In this document: positions 2,375 to 22,325 of the stretch, in pieces | Layout: the number at the start of each line of letters is the position of its first letter | How positions within the stretch are numbered: the stretch's first letter is position 1 | Assembly: GCA_009908725.1 (NCBI GenBank) | Contig: JAAAOT010000270.1 | Span: forward strand, 1-43,649 | Length of the DNA: 43,649 nt | From: Bacteroidota bacterium | GTDB taxonomy: Bacteria > Bacteroidota > Rhodothermia > Rhodothermales > Salinibacteraceae | Direction of reading: 5' to 3' | Notes under the pieces: model-generated | What the model was told of the DNA's origin: nothing | Databases searched by the model: none | Seen by the model: only the letters and a program-made list of their open reading frames with translations | Made by a program: the position numbers and the translations under genes

Positions 2375-2779
2375 TCAGAGGTTCTCAGCACGCCCGGTCT
2401 GAACGGCGATCGCTTCGATCTCGACCTGGTATCCGTAGTGCAACTCACGCGTCGGGACAACCGCACGTGCGGGTCGGTGGTCTCCGAAAAATGCAGCGTA
2501 CACATCGTTCACCCGACTCCATAGATTGATGTCCGACACGTACACTGTCGTTTTGAGAACGTGATTGATGTCTGATCCCGCAGCCCGTAGTACAGCAGCG
2601 ACATTATCCAATGCTTGCTGCGTTTGAGCTTCGATTGTTCCTGGTTCGCGGGAGGCGCCGTCCGCACCCGTGGGATCGACCGGCAATTGGCCAGACACGT
2701 AGACGATCCCATTAAATACCCGGGCCTGTTCGTAGTGGCCGGCGGGGTGCGGAGCGTTGTCAGTGGAGATGACGTGCAT
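2375..2779 (-). CDS. ridA: RidA family reactive enamine/imine deaminase
   Basis: RidA hydrolyses 2-aminoacrylate and related enamine/imine intermediates released by PLP dehydratases, protecting PLP enzymes from damage. The 134-residue product is normal family length and shows the family pattern: ARVFNGIVYVSGQLPVDP near the N-terminus, TQQALDNVAAVLRAAGSD, KTTVYVSDINLWSRVNDVYAAFFGDHRPAR in the middle, and VEIEAIAV at the end. An Arg in the RPARAVVPTRE segment is the likely carboxylate-binding residue. I chose the ATG at 2779 (MHVISTD) because the upstream extension to 2845 is not conserved in the family. It is the last gene of a minus-strand run that also encodes a threonine/serine dehydratase (10992-11999), which makes exactly the intermediates RidA clears. 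Confidence 0.9.
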   Translation of the reverse strand: MHVISTDNAPHPAGHYEQARVFNGIVYVSGQLPVDPTGADGASREPGTIEAQTQQALDNVAAVLRAAGSDINHVLKTTVYVSDINLWSRVNDVYAAFFGDHRPARAVVPTRELHYGYQVEIEAIAVQTGRAENL

Positions 2780-2851
2780 AGCAACAGCGGATCGATGAGC
2801 GGAAGCAATAAGGACAATCAAGACACGCGAGGCGCGTCGATACACCTGGAC

Positions 2852-3722: not shown

Positions 3723-4706
3723 CTAGGAGGATGCTGTAGATCCGTAGGTTGTAGGCGTCTTCGACAGGCCGAGCATGCTGCGGGCCTCTGCGGGCGTGGC
3801 GACCTCCCGATTGAGTTCCTGGGCGATACGAACGGCCCTTTCGACCAACTGCGCGTTGTCGGCCGCTTCGCCGCGACGGTAGTAGATGTTGTCCTCCAGT
3901 CCGACCCGGACGTGTCCGCCCATTAGCATCGCCAGCGTCGTCATAGGCAACTGGTGACGGCCGATGCCGGAGCAGAGCCAGAGGGTGTCTTCGGGCATCT
4001 CGCGGAGTAACTGCAGCACGTTGTCGACGGTCGGCAGGCTGGACGCCTGGTAGCCCATTACCGTCTGAATCCAGTAGGGTGGTTCGAGTAGGTTGCGGTC
4101 GATCAGGTGGTCGACTAGGCGGAGCGATCCGGTGTGATAGGTCTCAAGCTCCGGTTTGATACCCCTCGATTTCATCGTGGAGGCAAACTCGCGGATTTGT
4201 CCAAAGGTAAAGGGAATGCAGGCGTCGATGTGGTCCTCCGGTCGAGGGTGTTCGAATGAGGAGGGACGTGCCTTCAGGGTGAACTCGGACATGTCGGGCG
4301 AGAGGTTGAGGGAGGCCACCTCCGGCTGGGCGTCGAGGCATGACTGCCGGTCCTCCATGTCGACGTAGAAATCGGCCCCGGTTGTGTTGTTGATGATGGC
4401 GTCCGGACACCGGTCGCGGATCCGACGGTTCACCTCCCACCACGTGTCGGTCCTGGTCGCGCCCTTCCATCGTGTTTCGGGGGAGCGGGCGTGCACGTGG
4501 ATCATCGACGCGCCGGCCTCGCACGCTGCTTGGGCGGCTTCGGCAATCTGCTCCGGTGTTTCAGGAATCGAGGCGTTGTACTCCTTTCCCTGAATGCCTC
4601 CGTTGATGGCGCAGCAGATGATGACGGGCGGCATGCCGTCTCGGAGCGCATCAAGGTAGTCGTCGGCACGGGCGTAGCGCCAGAGGTGGTCGAACGAAGC
4701 ATCCAT
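3723..4706 (-). CDS. BKACE family beta-keto acid cleavage enzyme (DUF849)
   Basis: BKACE enzymes condense a beta-keto acid with acetyl-CoA and split it into acetoacetyl-CoA and a shortened acid; the founding member, Kce, acts on 3-keto-5-aminohexanoate in lysine fermentation. This 327-residue protein has the TIM-barrel hallmarks: IHVHARSP with metal-binding His at about 70 and 72, NNTTGADF, and VRVGLEDNIYYRRG with Glu/Asp at about 271-272. It is about 50 residues longer than Kce, mostly as an N-terminal extension (MDASFDHLWRYARADDY...). The usual Gly-Ala-Glu turn after the first strand is replaced by NGGIQGKE, so its substrate probably differs from that of Kce. The 3-hydroxyacyl-CoA-dehydrogenase-like gene 55 bp upstream would logically supply a beta-keto substrate. 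Family secure, substrate unknown. Confidence 0.9.
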   Translation of the reverse strand: MDASFDHLWRYARADDYLDALRDGMPPVIICCAINGGIQGKEYNASIPETPEQIAEAAQAACEAGASMIHVHARSPETRWKGATRTDTWWEVNRRIRDRCPDAIINNTTGADFYVDMEDRQSCLDAQPEVASLNLSPDMSEFTLKARPSSFEHPRPEDHIDACIPFTFGQIREFASTMKSRGIKPELETYHTGSLRLVDHLIDRNLLEPPYWIQTVMGYQASSLPTVDNVLQLLREMPEDTLWLCSGIGRHQLPMTTLAMLMGGHVRVGLEDNIYYRRGEAADNAQLVERAVRIAQELNREVATPAEARSMLGLSKTPTTYGSTASS

Positions 4707-4761: not shown

Positions 4762-5715
4762 TCAGGGTAGATTCGAGAGCCAGCCATCTTGTTCGTAGGC
4801 TGGGTTGGGATAGGTGTAGAATCCCTCGCCCGTCTTCACGCCGAGTTTGCCGGCCTCAATCATATCGTCCAAGACGGGCGGCGGCCGGTCGGACGGTGAG
4901 CCGCTCTCACGGTAGTACATCATCTCGATATCGCGGACCACGTCGAGTCCCACTTTGTCCATCAGGCCGCATGGTCCCATCGACGCGTCCCACTCGAGCA
5001 TCCAGCCCCGGTCGATATCTTCGGGCGTGGCGTAGGCGCCGTCGACGAGAAAGAGCGTCTCCTTCTTGATTGCCCGCCAGATGCGATTGACGGCGTATCC
5101 CATGATCTCGCGGCGCACGCGAATTGGGACGAGACCCAGCCGGCGGACGAAGCCAAGGATGGCCTCCATGGTTTGTGGTGCCGTGCCCGGATGGCCCATC
5201 ACCTCCACCTTGCGGTCGTCCGGTGGGCCGAAGTTAACGTTAGCCACCCGCTCCGGCCGTGTCGTTGCGTCGGCGAGCCACGAGCCGGGAATCGAGGAGG
5301 TGTTCGTCACGATCCACGCCTCCGGGGCGGCGGCCCGATCGATGTCGGCGAACACACGTCGCTTGAGGTCGACGTCTTCGGGGACCGCCTCGATCACGAG
5401 ATCGGCGCCGGCGACGGCCCCGGAAAGATCCGTGTGAGTGGACAGGTCGGCTATGCTGCTCTCAGAGACGGTGTGACCATGATCGTCTCGGCCATCGCTG
5501 CGCCCATCGAGCAGTTGGTTCACCGCGTGGCGGGCGTCCTCAACCGTCGCCGGATCGACGTCGTAAAGTCGCGCAGGAATACCTTCTTTAATGCAGCCGT
5601 ACGCGATGCGTCGGCCCATCGTCCCTGCACCCACGATGCCCACGCGTTGCACATGCGCAGTGTCGGGTGAATCCGACGGAGTGTCGTGTTGCGCGTTGGT
5701 CCGGGAGGTTGTCAT
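4762..5715 (-). CDS. 3-hydroxyacyl-CoA dehydrogenase family protein, catalytic His replaced
   Basis: A 317-residue NAD-dependent dehydrogenase of the 3-hydroxyacyl-CoA / L-carnitine dehydrogenase family. The N-terminal Rossmann domain has GIVGAGTMG (about 26-34) and YDVD for the adenosine ribose; VIEAVPED and TNTSS match the family. The C-terminal domain has MGYAVNRIW, ATPEDIDRG, MGPCGLMDKVGLDVV and LGVKTGEGFYTYP. Where the family normally has HxFNP with a catalytic His, this protein reads VNFGPP, which puts Asn at about 161, while the partner Glu (KVEV, about 171) is kept. It may therefore act on an unusual substrate or by altered chemistry. The start ATG overlaps the permease stop by 4 bp (ATGA), implying translational coupling. 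Upstream open frame on this strand is a shadow of the permease. Confidence 0.85.
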   Translation of the reverse strand: MTTSRTNAQHDTPSDSPDTAHVQRVGIVGAGTMGRRIAYGCIKEGIPARLYDVDPATVEDARHAVNQLLDGRSDGRDDHGHTVSESSIADLSTHTDLSGAVAGADLVIEAVPEDVDLKRRVFADIDRAAAPEAWIVTNTSSIPGSWLADATTRPERVANVNFGPPDDRKVEVMGHPGTAPQTMEAILGFVRRLGLVPIRVRREIMGYAVNRIWRAIKKETLFLVDGAYATPEDIDRGWMLEWDASMGPCGLMDKVGLDVVRDIEMMYYRESGSPSDRPPPVLDDMIEAGKLGVKTGEGFYTYPNPAYEQDGWLSNLP

Positions 5716-7256
5716 GACGTCGCACGTTCTTTTCGGTCGGAAGTATGAGGTGCGTCGGAGATGGAGGGCACCGCACGGGAAGGTGACTCCGGCGATGCGT
5801 CTGCGCCGGTCGGAAGCGATGCTCCGAAGATGAGCTGCCGTCTCGTGTTCTCGGTGACCTCGTTGCGGACCCGGCGAGCCATCCACCAGAAGCAAGCACC
5901 TAGGACGATCCAGACGGCTAGCAGCGCCCACTCCATCGGAATCCCCTCGGCACTGACGTACGGGTCGCGCAGGCTGAGGAAAACGAAGAAGGCAGCCCCG
6001 ATGACGCCGAGCATCATGACCAAGCGTCCGCCAGGCACCCGAAACGGCCGCGACAGGTCCGGCCGCTGCACGCGCATGCGGAGGGTGCCGACGCACACGA
6101 GCAGAAAGACGGCGGCCCAGCAGATAACACCCATGTTGAGCACCGGGGTAAGGCCGCCCTGACCAAGGGGTACACCGAGCGCCCCGACGGCTCCGACGAA
6201 CAAGACGGCTCCTGTCGGGGACCGGAAGCGCGAATGGACTGCTTTGAAGGCAGGTGGGATCATGCGAGCACGACCGAGGGCGAACAACAGCCGAGAAGCC
6301 GCCATGAAGATGGCGTTCCAGCTTGTGAGTAGGCCCAGCAGGGCGGCAGCGAGAACCAAGTCGGCCACAATTGGGGAGTCGAACGTCGCCCGAAAGGCGG
6401 CCGCGGCGGGAAGTTCGTCGAGGGCGAGCAGTTCTGGCCATGGCATCGCCATCGACGCCGACACGATGACGAGAACGTAGAAGACGCCTGCGAGCCCAAC
6501 GGCCAGCACCATCATCCACCCCACGGACCTTAGCGAGGTCGATGCGTCCTTCTCCTCCAACACCTGTGGGATCGTATCGAACCCGGCGAGGAAGTATGGA
6601 GCGGTCATCAGTACGGCAAGTATCCCCGGAATCACGGAGGCCCTTCCAGCATCGGTTTCCTGGAACAGCGGGTAGAGATTGTCGACCTCGCCCCACCCGA
6701 TACCGGCCACGATGAACCCGAGACTGGCCGTGATGAAGAGGGCCGTGAGGATATTTTGCACCTGCGCCCCCCAGCGAATGCCGAGATAATGCAGGCCCGT
6801 GAATCCGGCCATGCCGGCCATCCCAATTGCGATGCTCCCGACATAGACCGGGTCGCTGCCCACTGTGTACAACTCGGGGCCGCGGAGCACCGGAAACAGC
6901 GTCTCCAGGAGCATCGCCAGCGAGATCGCCTCCCATGCGACCACCGAGATGTACGCCAGAGCCAGAAGCCACCCGGTGAGGTATGACGTGCGGAGACCGT
7001 ACATCTCGTAGGTGTACGCCATCTCGCCGCCTGAAACCGGGAAGATGGAGGCCGTTTCGGCGTACGTCACAGCAATAAGCATCATCATGAGGGTGCCGAG
7101 CACGAACCCGAGCACCGCACCGGCCGGGCCTGCAGGAGAGAGCCAGAAGCCGAGATAGATCACCCACCCGACGCCGACGATCGTCCCGAACGCCATCGTA
7201 AAGTACTGTGTCGTCGTGACGACCTTGTTCAGTTCTTCGCGGTCTACGGTGGACAT
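5712..7256 (-). CDS. APC superfamily amino acid permease
   Basis: A 514-residue inner-membrane transporter of the amino acid-polyamine-organocation superfamily. The N-terminus has the TM1 unwound-helix motif FGTIVGVGWVIY, followed by about 12 hydrophobic helices with short loops. TM2-TM3 carry the family pattern ETASIFPVSGGEMAYTYEMYG. AGFDTIPQVLEEKDAS lies in the loop after TM6, and SRLLFALGRARMIPPAF after TM8. A hydrophilic tail of about 60 residues ends the protein. It very likely imports an amino acid or amine by proton or sodium symport; the substrate is not readable from sequence. It lies 21 bp after the CocE hydrolase gene and overlaps the dehydrogenase start by 4 bp, so these three genes almost certainly share a transcript. 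Confidence 0.9.
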   Translation of the reverse strand: MSTVDREELNKVVTTTQYFTMAFGTIVGVGWVIYLGFWLSPAGPAGAVLGFVLGTLMMMLIAVTYAETASIFPVSGGEMAYTYEMYGLRTSYLTGWLLALAYISVVAWEAISLAMLLETLFPVLRGPELYTVGSDPVYVGSIAIGMAGMAGFTGLHYLGIRWGAQVQNILTALFITASLGFIVAGIGWGEVDNLYPLFQETDAGRASVIPGILAVLMTAPYFLAGFDTIPQVLEEKDASTSLRSVGWMMVLAVGLAGVFYVLVIVSASMAMPWPELLALDELPAAAAFRATFDSPIVADLVLAAALLGLLTSWNAIFMAASRLLFALGRARMIPPAFKAVHSRFRSPTGAVLFVGAVGALGVPLGQGGLTPVLNMGVICWAAVFLLVCVGTLRMRVQRPDLSRPFRVPGGRLVMMLGVIGAAFFVFLSLRDPYVSAEGIPMEWALLAVWIVLGACFWWMARRVRNEVTENTRRQLIFGASLPTGADASPESPSRAVPSISDAPHTSDRKERATS

Positions 7257-7277
7257 AAGAGGGGGAGGGGTTCGGAG

Positions 7278-9191
7278 TTATCGCGATGAAGACGGCCCCG
7301 GGATGATGGGGAGCACGATGTGAGACGGATGGTCGGCCGAATGATGGACCGTATTCCGTGCCGTCGTCCACGTCGTATCAGCATGGTTGTCGCGGCCGGT
7401 ATTCAGGTTGCGTGTGAACCGAGGGAAGTTGCTGCTCGACACTTCGACGCGTATTCGATGGCCGGCTACGAAAGCGTTGCTCGTCGCATGCAGGTTGACG
7501 TCGACGCGGTAGACTTCGCCCTCTTCCATGCGGCTGACGCGATCATAGCCCTCGCGGTACCGCACCCTCTGGATGCCTTCCTGGATGTTATAGGCTGTTC
7601 CGTCGGGGGCGACGTCGACCAGCTTGACGGTGACGTCTGTGTCCGGAGCCGACGACGACAGGTAGATCGTGGCCTGGATCGGACCGGTTACCTCCACGCT
7701 CTCGTCCAGCGGGGTCGAGGTGTACACGAGCACGTCGTCCCGCATCTCCACGGCGCGCTGATCCCACGCGCCCTCGGCCTGCGGAGTCTGCGTGCAGCAA
7801 GCCTGGCCGCCAATGGTCGGCACCGGCGAGGCCGGATCGTACACAAAGGTGTCAGTAAACGCCTCGCCGGTAGGAGAGCCCGCGGCGTGGTCGGAAGGCG
7901 GTTCAGTCGAAAGCCGGCCATCTCCCATCCGGCTGTTGGCGTGGCCGTCGCTGTGGAGGAAGTACCTGGTTCGGTCGGTTTCCGGTAGCGGCCACGCGTC
8001 GGCCGACCGCCACTCGTTTTGTCCCATGAGGTAATACTGCACGGGCGAACGGTCGGTGATGCCGGTATCTTCGCCGCGGAGCCAGTGGTCGAACCAGTCG
8101 AGGTAGAGACGCCAGTAGTCCAACCGGGCGTCGCCCACGTTTCGCTCGCCGACGATCGTCTCGCCTGTGGCCTCGTGGTGGTCGCAGTGGGTCGTGGGGG
8201 CGATAATGATGAACTGGTTCTGTCGCGCCGACGCGCTCACTGCATTCGTCTGGAAGAGGTTGAAGAGCGCCAGCGCCTCGGAGACGCCGTAGTCATACCA
8301 GGAGGCGACCTGAAGCGCGGGTACGTCGAAGCGGTCGGCGTCCGTGACGAATGCGTACTGGTCCCACCACGGATCGTCAGGAGCATGCGAGACGAGATCT
8401 TCCCACAGGTTCGGCGGCGACTGAGACCGCCGCATCAGGTCGACGACGGGAAGCTCGTTCCAGAGGGCGGCCTCATCGATCTCGGGCAGTCGCGGGCGCA
8501 GGTCGAAGGCATCTGTGGCGCGGAGGAGATCATCGCGCGGCGTCCCGGCCGGGTAGCTCGGTCGAAGGCTCCATCCCTTCTCCCGAAACCACGTGAAGAT
8601 CATCGCGAGCTCGAATGCTCCTCCGTTGTTTGTCGCCCAGTTTCGATGTCGTTCGCCGTGGGTGTACATCGCCCCGGCGAACATCGGGACGGCGGCGGCA
8701 TGATTCGGATGCCGCTCTGCCGCCAACTGGATCTGGTTCTCGCCGCGATAAGAACAGCCGAAGGTTCCTACCTTGCCCGTCGACCAGGACTGTGCGGATA
8801 GCCAGCCGACCGTGTCGTAGCCGTCCTGGCGGTCATGCGCGGTCCACCGGTAGCGGCCCTCCGATTCGTACTTCCCCCGCATGTCCTGGACCGCTGCTAC
8901 GTAGCCCTGACCCGCAAAGAAACGGGCTGCGGCATGCTCGTCCGTGTCGTTCTTGTTATAGGGCGTGCGGATGAGGACGACCGGCTGTGGCATATCCGCC
9001 CCGACCGGGAAGTACAGGTCTGTCGCCAGCCGAACGCTGTCGCGCATTGGCACCATCACCGTTTTCTGCCGGCGCACGTCGTACTCCGCATCCGGCTGCG
9101 AAACCGGCTGGCCGTGGGCATGCGGTGCCCTCTCGGTGATGAGCAGGACGGCGAGGAGCGATGTCCATGTGCAGATGCGAAGACAGAGCAT
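7278..9191 (-). CDS. Exported CocE/NonD family hydrolase (S15-like)
   Basis: CocE/NonD proteins are serine hydrolases with an alpha/beta-hydrolase core and a C-terminal jelly-roll; known members cleave esters (cocaine), glutaryl-amides or X-Pro dipeptides. This 637-residue protein has a signal peptide (hydrophobic LLAVLLI, likely cut near HAHGQ). It starts the family fold with VMVPMRDSVRLATDLYFP, has VQDMRGKYESEG, and carries the nucleophile elbow GTFGCSYRG with Ser at about 147. The acid is probably in QVASWYDYG and the His in IIIAPTTHCDH. The last 200 residues are strand-rich and contain TPLDESVEVTGPIQATIYLSSSAPDTDV-like jelly-roll sequence. It is followed after 21 bp by the amino-acid permease, suggesting that the product released outside is an amino acid or amine. 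Confidence 0.9.
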   Translation of the reverse strand: MLCLRICTWTSLLAVLLITERAPHAHGQPVSQPDAEYDVRRQKTVMVPMRDSVRLATDLYFPVGADMPQPVVLIRTPYNKNDTDEHAAARFFAGQGYVAAVQDMRGKYESEGRYRWTAHDRQDGYDTVGWLSAQSWSTGKVGTFGCSYRGENQIQLAAERHPNHAAAVPMFAGAMYTHGERHRNWATNNGGAFELAMIFTWFREKGWSLRPSYPAGTPRDDLLRATDAFDLRPRLPEIDEAALWNELPVVDLMRRSQSPPNLWEDLVSHAPDDPWWDQYAFVTDADRFDVPALQVASWYDYGVSEALALFNLFQTNAVSASARQNQFIIIAPTTHCDHHEATGETIVGERNVGDARLDYWRLYLDWFDHWLRGEDTGITDRSPVQYYLMGQNEWRSADAWPLPETDRTRYFLHSDGHANSRMGDGRLSTEPPSDHAAGSPTGEAFTDTFVYDPASPVPTIGGQACCTQTPQAEGAWDQRAVEMRDDVLVYTSTPLDESVEVTGPIQATIYLSSSAPDTDVTVKLVDVAPDGTAYNIQEGIQRVRYREGYDRVSRMEEGEVYRVDVNLHATSNAFVAGHRIRVEVSSSNFPRFTRNLNTGRDNHADTTWTTARNTVHHSADHPSHIVLPIIPGPSSSR

Positions 9192-9253
9192 GTGTAGCAG
9201 GCCTCCGGGGCCGCAGGATGATTTGGGGAATGAATCGGCGAAGGACCTGGAGA

Positions 9254-10876
9254 TTACTCGGGAATGCGGGTGTCGGAGGCAAACTGCTCGAAGAGGCTGG
9301 TATCGGACGGCTCCTCGAAGTCGGGCGCCGGAAGTGAGACGTGGTCAGGAATGTCGCCGAACGACCCGGTCTTCAGAAACGACAGTACCTGCGCCTGCAC
9401 CTCAGGATGAAATTGGCGTGCCTCGCGAATGGCGAGGTGGGTGCCGTTCTCGACGTGTAGCAGGTGACTCGTCGGTAGGTCCTCCTGGATGGCGCGCGCA
9501 TTCTCGATCGGCGTCGAACGGTCGAGGTCGCCCTGAATCATCAGGACGGGCACATCGATCGAAAAGCCGGTGCGGAAGGCGTCACCGACGTCCGGGGTGG
9601 GAGCGAGGTCGCGCGTGGAGTCATAGAAGTGATTGATCGGCCCGACCCACGAAGTGGCCGTATCGGCCTGAAGGGTTCGTCTCCGTTGTGCCGAAATTCC
9701 GAGGCTGTGGTCAATCAGCGGGAAGATGAGAGTAACACGGTCAGACTGCCGGCTCCGGTACGCAAGGGCGGCTAGATACCGAAAGTCTCCGTCTTGCATC
9801 TCGAGGATGAATCGGGGCCACCGAGCGAGTCCTTCCCGGGTATAGTAATCCGGCGCGAAGCGCTTCAATGCCTGCTGCAGATCGTATCGGCCGACGACGA
9901 CGGTGACGAGCTCACCCGTCTTTGGATGGGGTACCGTCACGGTTTCGGGTTGCTCTTCCAGCCGATCGAGAAGCGAGCGGATGGCGGCTTCAAGGCCGTC
10001 CTCAGGTAGCGCGCCCTGGAGATCGGGGTCTGACTCCGCCAGGCGGATGATGCGCTGATGAGCGGCCCAGACGTGAGACGGACGGTCGTAGGCGTAGTCC
10101 AGCGGCTCGATGCCGCCCAGAAGGGCACGGGCGACGCGCTCGGGATGGCGCTTCATGAACGCAAAGCTCCACTGGCTGCCAAAGCTATTTCCCCGAAGAA
10201 TGATCTGCTCGTAGCCGAGGGCCGCCCGCAGGTCGTTTACGTCGTCGACCGCATTCAATATGTCGTAACCGGAGAGGTCTACTCCGCGCGCCTCCCACGC
10301 ATTGAGAGCCGACGTGAAGCCGTTTCGATAGGCGTCCCGTAAGACTTTCGGATCGCCGGGCACGTTCAGGGGCACCCCGCTCACCGTCATGTTCATGTCG
10401 GGCACGAAGGGCACGTCGACGTTGGGGTTGCCGCGCTGGTCGACGAGGACGAAGTCGCCGACCGACGTGAAGAACTCGATCATCTGCTGACCGTCCGCAT
10501 CGGTGAGCTCCTCACGATCGATCGTGCTTCCCGGGCCACCGGGTAGGTAGAAGACAGGCGGACCGTCGGCCCCCTCCTGTGCCGGGAATCGGCGGAATCG
10601 CACGGTGATGGTGCGCGACGTCGCGGTGCGCCGGTTCTCCGGGACGAACACGATGCCTTCCTCGTATTCAAGGTGCAATCCATTCTCCGCACCTAGAATG
10701 GCCGGCGTAATGTGCACGGTGCCCGGTTCCGGATGCTCGCTCTGTGCGGCGACGTCGTTCGCCACCAGCATGAGCCCTATTGCCAGCAAGAGCTTGATGG
10801 CGAGCACCATGTCACCAGTGAGCAGCCGTCTTGTGAAGGCGGTGGCGTTGGATAGGTGTAGAGCGCTAACTTTCAT
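9254..10876 (-). CDS. Exported alpha/beta hydrolase, S33 peptidase-like (proline iminopeptidase/tripeptidyl aminopeptidase type)
   Basis: A 540-residue secreted alpha/beta hydrolase. The hydrophobic signal (LAIKLLLAIGLMLVAND, cut near VAAQ) may be read from the ATG at 10876 or a later one at 10810. The body has the S33 landmarks: FYLPGGPGS with the oxyanion glycines, FVLVDQRGNPNVD, the nucleophile elbow ILRGNSFGSQWS (Ser at about 231 from the first Met), VLMIQGDLDRSTP with the acid, and VENGTHLAIRE with the His. A C-terminal TAP-like segment completes the family architecture. Such enzymes remove N-terminal residues or short peptides, or act as esterases. It lies 62 bp upstream of the CocE hydrolase gene, forming an exported hydrolase pair. 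Confidence 0.85.
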   Translation of the reverse strand: MKVSALHLSNATAFTRRLLTGDMVLAIKLLLAIGLMLVANDVAAQSEHPEPGTVHITPAILGAENGLHLEYEEGIVFVPENRRTATSRTITVRFRRFPAQEGADGPPVFYLPGGPGSTIDREELTDADGQQMIEFFTSVGDFVLVDQRGNPNVDVPFVPDMNMTVSGVPLNVPGDPKVLRDAYRNGFTSALNAWEARGVDLSGYDILNAVDDVNDLRAALGYEQIILRGNSFGSQWSFAFMKRHPERVARALLGGIEPLDYAYDRPSHVWAAHQRIIRLAESDPDLQGALPEDGLEAAIRSLLDRLEEQPETVTVPHPKTGELVTVVVGRYDLQQALKRFAPDYYTREGLARWPRFILEMQDGDFRYLAALAYRSRQSDRVTLIFPLIDHSLGISAQRRRTLQADTATSWVGPINHFYDSTRDLAPTPDVGDAFRTGFSIDVPVLMIQGDLDRSTPIENARAIQEDLPTSHLLHVENGTHLAIREARQFHPEVQAQVLSFLKTGSFGDIPDHVSLPAPDFEEPSDTSLFEQFASDTRIPE

Positions 10877-10991: not shown

Positions 10992-11999
10992 CTACGTGGT
11001 GGCGAACCAGCGGCCGGCCCGGGCCAGGTCGACGTTCCCGCCACTTATGATCGCGCCGACGCGGCCGCCGGACGGATCCACGATGCCCTCGAATAGCGCG
11101 GCGGCGGCGAGCGCTCCGGTCGGCTCAACCACGATCTTCATTCGCTCCCACAGGAACCTCATGGCCCGGATAAGCGCCTCATCCGAGACGGTCACGATGT
11201 CGTCGACGTAATGCAGGACGAGCGGGAATGTGACTTCACCCAGGGATGGGGTGCGCGCGCCGTCGGCAATGGTATCCGGATTTGTGACAGTCTGCAGCGT
11301 GCCGGTACGGAGGGAGCGCGCAGCGTCGTCGCCCGCGTCCGGCTCGACGCCAATGATGCGGCAGTCCGGCGAGAGCACGTCGGCCGCCATAGCGCAGCCG
11401 GAGAGCAGTCCGCCCCCGCCGCAGCAGACCACCAGCGTGTCGAGTTCGCCGACCTCGTCGATCAGCTCTTTGCCGGCCGTACCCTGGCCGGCTACGACGT
11501 GAGGGTGGTCGAACGAGGGGATAAGGGTCAGGTCGCGCTCGTCAGCAATCTCTGCGGCCAGTTCTTCTCGAACAGTCGTCTCTGGGTCGTACAGTACGAT
11601 CTCGGCGCCGTAGCCTCGAGTGGCGTCAAGCTTGACGTCGGGAGCATTTTTCGGCATGACGATCGTAGCGGGCATACCGAGCAGCTGCGCCGAAAGGGCG
11701 ATCGCCTGAGCGTGGTTTCCTGACGAGTACGCAATCACGCCGCGCTCTTTCTCCATGGGCGAAAACTGAGACAGCGCGTTGTACGCACCGCGAAATTTGA
11801 ACGCCCCCACCCGTTGGAAATTCTCGCATTTGAAGAACACCTTGGCTCCCACCCGCTCGTTTGCGGTCCGCGACGTCAGCACCGGGGTCCGGTGCGCGAG
11901 GCCGTCGAGACGCGCGGCCGCCGCCATCACGTCGGCGGGTTGCACGGGAAGGTCGGGTTGGGTAGCGCGGCTGGGAGGCGTGTGCGATTGGTCGGGCAT
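10992..11999 (-). CDS. PLP-dependent threonine/serine dehydratase (short, catabolic-type)
   Basis: Threonine/serine ammonia-lyase converts threonine to 2-oxobutyrate (or serine to pyruvate) and ammonia. The 335-residue protein is a fold-type II PLP enzyme. The Schiff-base Lys is at about 68 in VGAFKFRGAYNAL; the substrate loop is YSSGNHAQA; the phosphate-binding glycine loop is CCGGGGLLSG; a late SGGNVD segment contacts the pyridine ring. There is no C-terminal ACT domain, so it resembles TdcB or serine racemase rather than isoleucine-regulated IlvA. I chose the ATG at 11999 (MPDQSHT); the extension to 12044 begins with GTG and is low-complexity. It sits between the TonB receptor and the S33 hydrolase, and the same strand run ends with ridA, its usual housekeeping partner. 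Confidence 0.9.
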   Translation of the reverse strand: MPDQSHTPPSRATQPDLPVQPADVMAAAARLDGLAHRTPVLTSRTANERVGAKVFFKCENFQRVGAFKFRGAYNALSQFSPMEKERGVIAYSSGNHAQAIALSAQLLGMPATIVMPKNAPDVKLDATRGYGAEIVLYDPETTVREELAAEIADERDLTLIPSFDHPHVVAGQGTAGKELIDEVGELDTLVVCCGGGGLLSGCAMAADVLSPDCRIIGVEPDAGDDAARSLRTGTLQTVTNPDTIADGARTPSLGEVTFPLVLHYVDDIVTVSDEALIRAMRFLWERMKIVVEPTGALAAAALFEGIVDPSGGRVGAIISGGNVDLARAGRWFATT

Positions 12000-12069
12000 G
12001 GCACGCGGGCGAGGTCCGAGGGCGAGGTGCAGTGGTGGCGACACGGTGCAGCGAAGACGACGGTTGGGG

Positions 12070-16832: not shown

Positions 16833-17621
16833 CTATGCTATGAGCCCTCCGTCGACACCGAGCACAGCGCCTGTAATGAACGATGCGTCGTCGGAGGCGA
16901 GGAACGCGTAGGCGCTGGCGACCTCGTCGGGGGTTCCGAATCGGCGCAGAGGTGTCTTTTGCCGAATGAGCGCGACGATGTGGTCGGGGACGGACTCGAC
17001 CATGCCTGTCTCGACGAATCCCGGTGCCACGGCGTTGACGGTGATCCCCTTCCGGCCGAGCTCGCGGGCCCACGTTTTGGTCATGCCGATGACACCCGCC
17101 TTGGCCGCGACATAATTCGTCTGGCCGAAATTGCCGTATCGTCCCGCGATTGAGGTGGCGTTTAGGATCCGGCCGAATTCTCGCTCTTCCATGTGCGGCA
17201 CCACGGCCTTCGTGCAGTGAAATGTGCCTTTGAGGTTCACGTCGATGACCTCCTCGAAGGCCTCTGCGGTCATCTTTTGCAGCGTAGCGTCGCGGGTGAG
17301 GCCGGCATTGTTAATGAGAATGTCGATCTGTCCGAATCGGTCGATGGACGCCTCGGCGAGAGCTTTCGCATCCTCCACTTGCGCCACGTCCGTTTGGATG
17401 AAGATAGCCTGACCGCCCGAGCCGTCAATGCTGGAGACGGTCTCCGCCCCCCGCTCCGTGTCAAGGTCTGCGATCACGAGGCGCGCACCCTCTCGGGCGA
17501 ACCGTTGTGCCGTTGCTCGGCCAATGCCGTTCGCGCCGCCCGTTATGATCGCCACTCGATCCTTCAGGCGGCCATTCGCTACTGTCTCGGTATTCTCGGA
17601 CGAAGACTCAGATGATGACAT
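16833..17621 (-). CDS. SDR family oxidoreductase (FabG/PhaB-like)
   Basis: A 262-residue classical short-chain dehydrogenase, similar in layout to 3-oxoacyl-ACP or acetoacetyl-CoA reductases. It has the cofactor loop TGGANGIG, a nucleotide-selecting DLDT turn after the second strand (favouring NAD), NNAG, the catalytic Ser in ATSIAGRYG, the Tyr-x-x-x-Lys in NYVAAKAG, and the C-terminal ASFITGAVLGVDGG. I chose the ATG at 17621 (MSSSESS); another ATG at 17651 and the far upstream one at 17726 are possible, and no strong ribosome-binding site decides between them. With the acyl-CoA synthetase 161 bp upstream it could reduce or oxidise an acyl-CoA intermediate. The substrate cannot be read from sequence. 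Confidence 0.88.
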   Translation of the reverse strand: MSSSESSSENTETVANGRLKDRVAIITGGANGIGRATAQRFAREGARLVIADLDTERGAETVSSIDGSGGQAIFIQTDVAQVEDAKALAEASIDRFGQIDILINNAGLTRDATLQKMTAEAFEEVIDVNLKGTFHCTKAVVPHMEEREFGRILNATSIAGRYGNFGQTNYVAAKAGVIGMTKTWARELGRKGITVNAVAPGFVETGMVESVPDHIVALIRQKTPLRRFGTPDEVASAYAFLASDDASFITGAVLGVDGGLIA

Positions 17622-17782
17622 AGGTAAAGAGACATCGTTTGTGAATGGCATACTGGGTACAACCCGGAACGCAGTGCAACCAACAACGCAGGATAGCACG
17701 CGAGGGTGTGCGATCGGCCCGTGCAATCCAGGTGGTAGATCGATCCTGCCGGAAGATTGCCTGGGGTCGCCGTGCAGTGGTG

Positions 17783-19750
17783 TTATTCCTGAATGATGAG
17801 GTTGTAAGGGGTTGTGAAATGTGCGAGCGCATCCCGGACGTTCGACTGGAGGGTATCGGGGGAGATGCGCGGCATTTTCGTCACATGGATCTGCACGTGA
17901 ACGGCTCCGCTGGAGTCGGGCGACACCGCTACGTCGGCCGTTTCGACCCCCTGCGCTTCCGTCACCGCTTCGCGGTATACGTCGGCGATCTCCCTGTGCC
18001 GCAATTCGGGTTTGAATACCTTGCCTACGGCCGTCTGGGGCATGGTATCAACGATGCGCACATGTTTTGGTACGGCAGGTCGCTCCGTCACTCGCGCCTC
18101 CGCATGGGCGAGCAGTTCGTCTTCCGTCGCATGTGCTGCAGGACGAAGCTGGACAAACGCGACCGGCAACTCACCTGCGTATGCATCGGGACGGCCCACT
18201 ACCGCGGCGATCTCGACCGCCGGATGTTCATGAAGTGCCTCCTCGACCTCTTTCGGGTCAAGGTTGTGCCCGCTCCGGATGATGAGGTCCTTCTTTCGCC
18301 CGTCAATCCAGAAGTAGCCGTCCTCGTCCTGGCGACCGAGGTCGCCGGTATTTAGCCACAGGCCGCCGTCGCTGGCCTCTACCCACGCGTCTGCATTGTG
18401 CGCCGCGTCTCGGTACCCCTCGAACACATTTGGACCGCGGATGAGAAGGACGCCGACCTCGCCGGCGTCGCACCAGCGTTGGAAGACACCGTCGTCATCG
18501 AGCAGGGCGACCGCCATCTCCTGGTAAGGCAGCCGAAGCCCAACTGACCCCGGACGGTGCTCCCCGCGGCGCGGCATGACGGACGAGACGCACGTTCCCT
18601 CGGTCAGGCCGTAGCCTTCCAGGATCGGAATTCCTGTCTCGTTCCTGAAGCGTCGGTACACCTCGACCGGTAGCGGCGCAGCTCCGCTGAACGCGAATTC
18701 GACGCTGGAGGCGGCTGCGGCGGAAGAGGGTACGTCCAAGAGTGCGCTAAAGACCGTGGGGACGCCGCTGAACGCTGTCACACCGTAGTGGTCTACGATA
18801 CGCCAGAATTTTGGAATCACGTCCGGGTCACGAAATCCCTTCGGGGTGGCGAGGACAACGCTCGCCCCCTGGCTCCACGGAGCGAGGCCGAGGATGAGGG
18901 CTGCATGTGCGTGGAAGAGGGGGAGCCCGCAGAGAATGGTGGTTTTGCTTCGGACGCCGGCGACGGTGACGCCGGCCCAGGCATCGAAGACTTCGTTCCG
19001 GTGCGTTCGTGCGGCAAGCTTGGGACGCCCCGTTGTACCGCCTGTGTGAAATAGAGAGGCAATATCGTCAGGGTGAATCTGCCGGTCGGAGACTCGCCGA
19101 TCGTTCGGTTGCGCATCGAGATGAGGGTGGAACGGCTCGACGCGGGGCCCTCCCTGCGGCGATGGCGCGGACGCGCGTCCCCACCGCCACAGCTTTACAC
19201 CCGCACGGCGCAGACCCGAGAGGTGCCGTGCCAGGTCCACCTGAAGAATCGTCTCCAGTGACGGCACCTGATTCTGAATGCGTGCCACCTTCTCCCAGAG
19301 GTTCGTGCCAGGAAAGGGGGCGAGCGTAACGAGTACCTTCGTTTCGGCCGCTCGCATGAGGTCGGCAATGGCCTCTGCATCCAGAAGCGGATTGATGGGA
19401 TTCGCAATCCCGGCTGCTTCCGCGCCCCAGAGGACCGCGTGTGTATCAGGAAGGTTGGGCAAGAGGTACGAGACCACGTCTCCACGGCCGACGCCGAGCG
19501 CGTGGAACAGGTTTGCGGCCTGCGTAATGCGGCCGACGAGTTCCTCGAATGAGTAGTCATCGGACCGCTCGTATGCGGCGCCGCGGAGAAAGAATTGGAG
19601 CGCGGTCTTCTCAGGATGCCGTGCGGCGCCCTGGCGGAGCATCGCATAGGTGCTCTCGGGCAAATTGCGCTCACGGAGCGGGACCTGCTCGATCGCCTCC
19701 ACGTCCGCCTGCGTCGCGATGCCCTCCGACAGATTGGTTGCTGTACTCAT
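17783..19750 (-). CDS. AMP-dependent acyl-CoA synthetase/ligase
   Basis: A 655-residue adenylate-forming enzyme that activates a carboxylic acid with ATP and then transfers it to CoA. The P-loop-like motif FHTGGTTGRPK is at about 234-244; EGYGLTEGT is the A5 motif; LNTGDLGRQDEDGYFWIDGRKKDLIIRSGHNLDPKEVEEAL covers the hinge region. The C-terminal catalytic Lys is in TAVGKVFKPEL, at about 577. After it there is an extra tail of about 75 residues not needed for the core fold. The start at 19750 (MSTATNL) avoids a proline-rich extension. The acid is unknown; fatty, aryl or branched acids are all possible. The neighbours (SDR, 3-hydroxyacyl-CoA-dehydrogenase-like, BKACE) fit a beta-oxidation-like route for the activated acid. 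Confidence 0.9.
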   Translation of the reverse strand: MSTATNLSEGIATQADVEAIEQVPLRERNLPESTYAMLRQGAARHPEKTALQFFLRGAAYERSDDYSFEELVGRITQAANLFHALGVGRGDVVSYLLPNLPDTHAVLWGAEAAGIANPINPLLDAEAIADLMRAAETKVLVTLAPFPGTNLWEKVARIQNQVPSLETILQVDLARHLSGLRRAGVKLWRWGRASAPSPQGGPRVEPFHPHLDAQPNDRRVSDRQIHPDDIASLFHTGGTTGRPKLAARTHRNEVFDAWAGVTVAGVRSKTTILCGLPLFHAHAALILGLAPWSQGASVVLATPKGFRDPDVIPKFWRIVDHYGVTAFSGVPTVFSALLDVPSSAAAASSVEFAFSGAAPLPVEVYRRFRNETGIPILEGYGLTEGTCVSSVMPRRGEHRPGSVGLRLPYQEMAVALLDDDGVFQRWCDAGEVGVLLIRGPNVFEGYRDAAHNADAWVEASDGGLWLNTGDLGRQDEDGYFWIDGRKKDLIIRSGHNLDPKEVEEALHEHPAVEIAAVVGRPDAYAGELPVAFVQLRPAAHATEDELLAHAEARVTERPAVPKHVRIVDTMPQTAVGKVFKPELRHREIADVYREAVTEAQGVETADVAVSPDSSGAVHVQIHVTKMPRISPDTLQSNVRDALAHFTTPYNLIIQE

Positions 19751-19852
19751 CGGGTCTCGTGGCCCTGGTGAGGGAGGTGGGATGAATTGCGGCAACACCT
19801 AGGAAGCAGCCTTCCGTGGGCGGATATCGCCTCGGGTCGCATGGAATAGAGG

Positions 19853-21584: not shown

Positions 21585-21588
21585 ATGG
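21568..21588 (+). promoter_or_regulatory. Candidate autoregulatory site over the regulator start codon
   Basis: TTTTACAGATCGAAA (21570-21584) matches the TonB-receptor upstream motif TTTTACAGAACGTAAA at 13 of its first 15 positions, and the motif runs into the ATG at 21585. A repressor bound here would block its own translation start region. The match is seen; the role is inferred. Confidence 0.45.
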
Positions 21589-22325
21589 ATCCAACGGCCG
21601 TTTCCGAGGCACAATCTGAAGTGTCGGCCGACCGCGTCGACCACATTCTAGAGCACTATGTCACGATTGCCGAGACACTGGGGACGATGCTGGCCCCGAT
21701 CCTGGAGGTTGCTGTTCACGACCTGCGAAAGCCAGGGTCTTCAATCATCGCGATTTACAACGGGCACCTCACCGGGCGTAACGTGGGGGATGGAGCGACG
21801 GACTTAGGTCTCCGCCGCCTGCGAGGAGATGATGTCCCCGACGCGATGGTCGGCTACGCAAATGAAAGTCCGGACGGGACGAAGATGAAGTCGTCCTCCC
21901 TTGCGATCCGAGACGACGAGGGAGCGCTCATCGGCGCATTGTGCCTGAATCTCGATATTTCGTATTTCGAGCAATACGGTAAATTCGTGCAGCGACTGAT
22001 TTCAACGCACGAAAGTATGCACGTCGACGATGGCGAAGATTTCGGCGCGACAAGTCCGGCCGAGGACATTCGGGATGCTATCGACCAGATCTGCCTCTCA
22101 AACGGCTGGATGGGGCGCTCGCTTTCCAATGATCAGAAGCGAACGATTGTCGAATTTCTTTATCGGCAAGGCCATTTCAAGAAGCGGGGTGCGGTGACGA
22201 TCATGGCCGAACAGCTTGGTCTCACGCGCCCCTCAATCTACAATTACAAGAACGACTACGTAGATCGGCGGAAGAACCGGAAAGAAACCGTGGACGCTGA
22301 GAACACAGACTCCAGGACGGATTGA
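21585..22325 (+). CDS. DauR/YheO-type PAS-HTH transcriptional regulator
   Basis: A 246-residue regulator with a YheO-like PAS domain (about 22-140; HDLRKPGSSIIAIYNGHLTGRNVGDGATDLGLRRL and SSSLAIRDDEGALIGALCLNLDIS) and a C-terminal HTH_22-type helix-turn-helix (about 175-228; SNDQKRTIVEFLYRQGHFKKRGAVTIMAEQLGLTRPSIYNY). Relatives include DauR, which controls D-arginine/D-lysine catabolism in Pseudomonas, and YheO of E. coli; the PAS part is thought to sense a small ligand. A highly acidic spacer (HVDDGEDFGATSPAED) joins the domains. It is divergent from the amino-acid/peptide catabolic run, the usual place for a dedicated regulator. The shared motif at 14608 and 21568 supports control of the TonB receptor and of itself. 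The family call is firm, the regulon inferred. Confidence 0.88.
   Translation: MDPTAVSEAQSEVSADRVDHILEHYVTIAETLGTMLAPILEVAVHDLRKPGSSIIAIYNGHLTGRNVGDGATDLGLRRLRGDDVPDAMVGYANESPDGTKMKSSSLAIRDDEGALIGALCLNLDISYFEQYGKFVQRLISTHESMHVDDGEDFGATSPAEDIRDAIDQICLSNGWMGRSLSNDQKRTIVEFLYRQGHFKKRGAVTIMAEQLGLTRPSIYNYKNDYVDRRKNRKETVDAENTDSRTD

Follow-up and report, generated by a model that had tools for sequence, protein, structure and literature searches.

A 3-hydroxyacyl-CoA dehydrogenase family protein with asparagine in place of the catalytic histidine, encoded beside a beta-keto acid cleavage enzyme

The window analyzed here, a stretch of 43,649 nucleotides from a metagenome-assembled Bacteroidota genome, encodes a 3-hydroxyacyl-CoA dehydrogenase (3HCDH)-family protein (positions 4762-5715, minus strand) that lacks the catalytic histidine. 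This raises the question of whether such a protein can still be a dehydrogenase, and of what substrate. The 3HCDH family is among the most widespread families of dehydrogenases; its His-Glu dyad is regarded as essential, and a functional assignment often has no other basis than the family name. In the accepted mechanism, the histidine takes the proton of the 3-hydroxyl group and is itself held by Glu170 (PMC10988713).

Translation of the minus strand of 4762-5715 gives a single intact open reading frame of 317 amino acids, running from an ATG start at 5715 to 4762 with neither a stop nor a frameshift, and the plus strand of the same interval is interrupted by stops. The GC content by codon position (0.67, 0.48, and 0.76) resembles that of the neighboring genes. 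The frame is also open across the entire upstream permease gene, which is read in another frame, giving an open reading frame of 869 amino acids (4762-7371, minus strand), so that an automatic gene caller could misplace the start.

Both domains of the family are recognized in the protein, 3HCDH_N (PF02737) with 133.8 bits against a cut-off of 22, and 3HCDH (PF00725) with 82.4 bits against 22.1. An AlphaFold model has a mean pLDDT of 84.9, its top Foldseek matches are 3-hydroxyacyl-CoA dehydrogenases, and its fold superimposes on solved 3-hydroxybutyryl-CoA dehydrogenases with a TM score of about 0.8-0.9. As both gathering cut-offs are exceeded and the fold agrees, the protein is placed in the 3HCDH superfamily. 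The best NCBIfam model, PRK08293 / NF006143, matches over the full length with 217.7 bits, below its cut-off of 312, and the L-carnitine dehydrogenase models NF005716 and NF005471 give 88.5 and 77.8 bits against cut-offs of 592 and 414. The protein retains the partner glutamate, the serine of the NTSS motif, the Asn-Arg pair, and the NAD loop of an active L-3-hydroxyacyl-CoA dehydrogenase; it lacks the histidine of HxFNP, and because this defining catalytic residue is absent, it is not filed as a 3-hydroxyacyl-CoA dehydrogenase. Residues 60-90, which in relatives contain a CoA-binding helix with a lysine, align poorly and have pLDDT values of 52-60 in part; an arginine may replace the lysine here.

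The HxFNP catalytic motif is replaced by VNFGPP (V160-N161-F162-G163-P164-P165; 5221-5238, minus strand), with the codon for Asn161 at 5233-5235. The dehydrogenase was aligned with 37 homologs, taken from genomes and from plasmids (38 rows). The Asn161 column holds histidine in 37 of the 37 homologs and asparagine solely in the dehydrogenase. Asn161 stands one residue before the end of a predicted strand (157-162), and His145 of a His-bearing relative has the same place in strand 141-146 of its own AlphaFold model (pLDDT 91.6). Plasmid-derived rows were left out of the structure prediction. Since the strand position matches that of His145, the assignment of Asn161 does not depend on one alignment. 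Compared with the loop that follows (NFG-PP), HFFNPVP has two residues more, and the HFYMPP of the nearest clade has one more.

The remainder of the active site is largely kept. Glu113, Asn138, Ser140, Arg211, and the glycines of the GAGTMG dinucleotide-binding loop (codons 29-34; 5614-5631, minus strand) are invariant in the 38-row alignment, the loop as a whole being invariant or nearly so. Asn210, which with Arg211 (5083-5088, minus strand) corresponds in two alignments to human Asn208 and the following arginine, is nearly invariant, and the NTSS motif is retained. Glu171 (in VEV; 5203-5205, minus strand), the equivalent of the glutamate that anchors the catalytic histidine (PMC10988713), is invariant in a second alignment, and some actinobacterial relatives have aspartate instead. 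These comparisons bear out the preliminary description, which placed an asparagine near residue 161 at the histidine position and held that the cofactor loop, partner Glu, Asn-Arg motif, and C-terminal domain were kept. In total, the protein departs from the family at four of the 35 columns that hardly vary among the 37 homologs (A42I, H161N, F207Y, and G227A) and conserves the other 31. By the same measure, L042 and L046, its nearest relatives from genomes that have the histidine, each lose 4 of 38, and most others lose none or one. The change of Phe207 to tyrosine is also unique to this protein and lies three residues before Asn210, near the active-site asparagine; that Tyr207 is a new proton donor is only a suggestion.

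The dehydrogenase gene is part of a series on one strand that encodes, in order of transcription, an S15-family hydrolase, an APC permease, the dehydrogenase, a beta-keto acid cleavage enzyme (BKACE), a DUF4397 protein, and a Rid-family protein. The CocE/NonD S15-family hydrolase (7278-9191, minus strand; TIGR00976, 421.7 bits, cut-off 66.3) ends 21 bp upstream of the permease and is a possible member of the unit. The stop codon of the APC-superfamily amino-acid permease (5712-7256, minus strand; PF13520, 164.5 bits) overlaps the dehydrogenase start as ATGA, and the BKACE (DUF849; 3723-4706, minus strand; PF05853, 288.6 bits, cut-off 24.8) starts 55 bp past the dehydrogenase stop, in agreement with the translational coupling and the BKACE neighbor described earlier. 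The BKACE appears to be intact, as its HxH (IHVHAR) and GLED motifs align with solved members, and it scores below every named NCBIfam BKACE cut-off (at best 234.5 against 382). The Rid (YjgF/RidA) gene (2375-2845, minus strand; TIGR00004, 129.3 bits, cut-off 106.25) lies beyond the DUF4397 gene and is only a possible member of the unit.

The BKACE is the only one found in the source genome, and a BKACE is present in 4 of 114 genomes of the order, the source included. Two BKACEs from the three other genomes were compared, with identities of 31-38%, and the flanks examined showed no 3HCDH homolog. Neither the second genome of the genus nor any other of the 114 genomes of the order has the dehydrogenase. 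Of the genes in the window, that for hydroxyaspartate ammonia-lyase alone is shared with five further genomes of the family, so that the dehydrogenase block has no counterpart in the genus and family. The shared gene encodes a threo-3-hydroxy-L-aspartate ammonia-lyase (10992-12044, minus strand; 541 bits, cut-off 452). Elsewhere in the window, a gene for a FabG-like SDR adjoins one for a PRK07529-type acyl-CoA synthetase (16833-19798, minus strand; 861 bits, cut-off 632), and a YheO-like PAS and HTH_22 regulator gene (21585-22325, plus strand) lies on the strand opposite to the surrounding block.

Searches of 245 genomes from the class, 395 from the phylum, and 396 from Actinomycetota, together with 72,556 plasmid records and viral contigs, gave no second VNFGPP protein; in the same searches, which include the 114 genomes of the order, no relative exceeded about 42% identity. 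A peptide-pattern scan of genome contigs, which uses exact peptides and so finds close relatives only, was likewise negative. In an unrooted tree, the dehydrogenase groups with an actinobacterial clade whose motif reads HFYMPP or HYQQPP (support 100/97). The same split is obtained, again unrooted, with the motif region removed (99/95), and the placement is therefore independent of the motif; it remains uncertain, as long branches meet there, the end branch of the dehydrogenase having 1.2-1.4 changes per column. The clade (L007, L008, L009, L012, L042, L046, L072, and L073), at up to 42% identity, is rare, being present in 4 of the 396 Actinomycetota genomes. All its members have the histidine, and in 2 of the 8 loci a divergent acetoacetate decarboxylase family gene adjoins the HFYMPP 3HCDH gene (L007, 6015-6950 minus strand and 6998-7888 plus strand; L008, 6072-6821 minus strand and 6962-7837 plus strand). 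This pairing suggests a free beta-hydroxy acid pathway, of which we met no description, and because of it the clade may also feed free beta-keto acids. No BKACE was found beside the clade genes in the stretches examined. The preliminary description had proposed looking for a separate VNFGPP clade with BKACE neighbors, and what was found instead is a nearest clade that keeps the histidine and has acetoacetate decarboxylase rather than BKACE in those two loci. On the haloarchaeal plasmid L035, a BKACE gene and a His-bearing 3HCDH gene do adjoin, in divergent orientation (8078-8914 minus strand and 8977-9996 plus strand), near gamma-glutamyltransferase and ornithine cyclodeaminase family genes. 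Its BKACE is 42% identical to that of the window, and its 3HCDH gene is a more distant relative.

The reading that we favor, tentatively and at somewhat less than even chances, is that the gene encodes an active NAD-linked dehydrogenase, which acts on a small free acid and supplies the BKACE, with Asn161, a water molecule, and Glu171 replacing the His-Glu dyad. A small compound resembling an amino or hydroxy acid would enter through the permease and be oxidized at C3 by the dehydrogenase to a free beta-keto acid, whose acetyl part the BKACE would move onto acetyl-CoA, yielding acetoacetate and a shorter acyl-CoA. Hydride would pass to NAD+ as in the rest of the family, Asn161 would do no more than orient the substrate oxygen, and Glu171 might take the proton through a water molecule in the space vacated by the histidine. 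That the substrate is a free acid and not a CoA ester is suggested by the adjoining gene for an enzyme of free beta-keto acids (a BKACE here, a decarboxylase in some relatives), as for carnitine and deoxyribonate. In favor of this reading we count the intact frame, the domains, the fold match, the 31 of 35 columns, the position of Asn161, the ATGA overlap, the BKACE, the known dehydrogenase-BKACE pairs, the acetoacetate decarboxylase neighbors of the clade, and the haloarchaeal plasmid with its BKACE and His-bearing 3HCDH genes. Against it, loss of the histidine is expected to cripple alcohol oxidation, since the accepted mechanism has this residue receive the proton (PMC10988713). A second natural copy with the asparagine, which would point to selection on Asn161, was not found in the genomes, plasmids, and viral contigs searched, and as to the substrate, the low NCBIfam scores of the BKACE weigh against it as well.

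A serious rival, even if an unlikely one, is a weak or inactive protein that was acquired by transfer, lost its histidine, and is drifting or has a non-catalytic role. The loss of the proton acceptor together with the shortened loop, the long end branch, and the occurrence in one metagenome-assembled genome, with nothing in the other genome of the genus or the rest of the order, all point this way, whereas the uninterrupted frame, the other active-site residues, and the tight fit between permease and BKACE do not, and near-invariant positions have been lost no more often than in the nearest His-bearing relatives. The earlier judgment that the protein is probably not dead thus has indirect support, from the conserved columns and this level of loss, the normal GC content by codon position, the coupling to the permease, and the intact BKACE that follows; altered chemistry or substrate, as far as the sequence can indicate, is plausible. 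A deficit that is an artifact of assembly or base calling, the true codon being CAC for histidine, is highly improbable. The source assembly is in 394 contigs and 84% complete, a single base separates CAC from AAC, and a second sequence for comparison was not found, but the adjoining motif is also remodeled with the frame preserved (NFG-PP where relatives have HFYMPP or HYQQPP), a change that a single wrong base could not produce, so that error alone is unlikely.

If the protein is active, its base might come from another histidine, or no such base might be needed. His175 lies at the far end of the next predicted strand and was set aside as a substitute base from the predicted secondary structure. 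In the preliminary description, a different histidine at the active site was the alternative to altered chemistry; none is obviously placed there, and His79 and His81 are the candidates left, as they lie in a poorly predicted loop (71-90; pLDDT 52-60) that could fold over the cleft of an otherwise ordinary dehydrogenase. The loop region contacts CoA in relatives. We nevertheless regard this as quite improbable, since we know of no precedent in the family, and the remaining histidines are elsewhere in the predicted secondary structure. Oxidation of an amine is distinctly unlikely too. In that reading, a beta-amino acid would be converted to a beta-imino acid, and hydrolysis, Rid-aided or spontaneous, would release the beta-keto acid for the BKACE. 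Loss of the histidine base would fit, an amine needing no deprotonation by the His-Glu dyad; the permease coupled to the dehydrogenase is of the amino-acid type, a Rid-family (enamine/imine deaminase) gene lies two genes past the BKACE on the same strand, and haloarchaeal relatives of the permease (about 33% identity) adjoin class III aminotransferase-family genes. In the lysine pathway that gave KCE its name, the keto acid arises from a beta-amino acid by oxidative deamination. Against it, imine or amine activity in the 3HCDH family was not found in the literature searched, Rid genes are common, and the DUF4397 gene stands between Rid and BKACE. The more specific proposal, that an NAD-linked beta-amino acid dehydrogenase of 3HCDH fold without a His base forms with the permease, BKACE, and Rid one block in which beta-amino acids are taken up, deaminated, and cleaved, is improbable.

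Should the dehydrogenase be active, it would show that proton transfer has a second solution on the 3HCDH fold, or that the fold can turn from oxidizing alcohols to oxidizing amines, and it would indicate a BKACE pathway that is not yet assigned. An inactive protein would caution against domain-based naming of such genes.

Among known systems, the (S)-3-hydroxybutyryl-CoA and L-3-hydroxyacyl-CoA dehydrogenases of Protein Data Bank codes 6aa8, 1f0y, and 3had share with the protein both domains, the fold (TM about 0.7-0.9), the NAD loop, NTSS, the partner Glu, and Asn-Arg, the 3-hydroxybutyryl-CoA dehydrogenases of the PDB being about 30-33% identical to it. It differs from them in the asparagine, the loop shorter by two residues, and neighbors that are not beta-oxidation genes. 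PRK08293 / NF006143 is its best full-length model but scores under the cut-off, and the actinobacterial clade shares NRIW.AIK and the PP motif with it but retains the histidine. The best PDB match by sequence is 4om8, 5-formyl-3-hydroxy-2-methylpyridine 4-carboxylate 5-dehydrogenase, a family member of the pyridoxine pathway that does not act on CoA esters; unlike our protein, 4om8 keeps the family histidine (mHws.nPP), and the dehydrogenase reaches 158 bits where 500 are required by the NCBIfam model of that type. Carnitine dehydrogenases, too, carry the family histidine. A natural 3HCDH member without it was not found in the literature searched, the coverage of which was partial, so that the case cannot be called unprecedented. 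The fold, the domains, and the pairing of a dehydrogenase with a BKACE are already known. Use of a free 3-hydroxy acid is established for deoxyribonate dehydrogenase, an SDR, with BKACE (PMC6365646), and for L-carnitine dehydrogenase, which likewise feeds a free beta-keto acid to a BKACE (PMC12482172). In contrast to the carnitine pathway, the protein described here scores far below both carnitine dehydrogenase models, and the transporter in the window is an APC permease.
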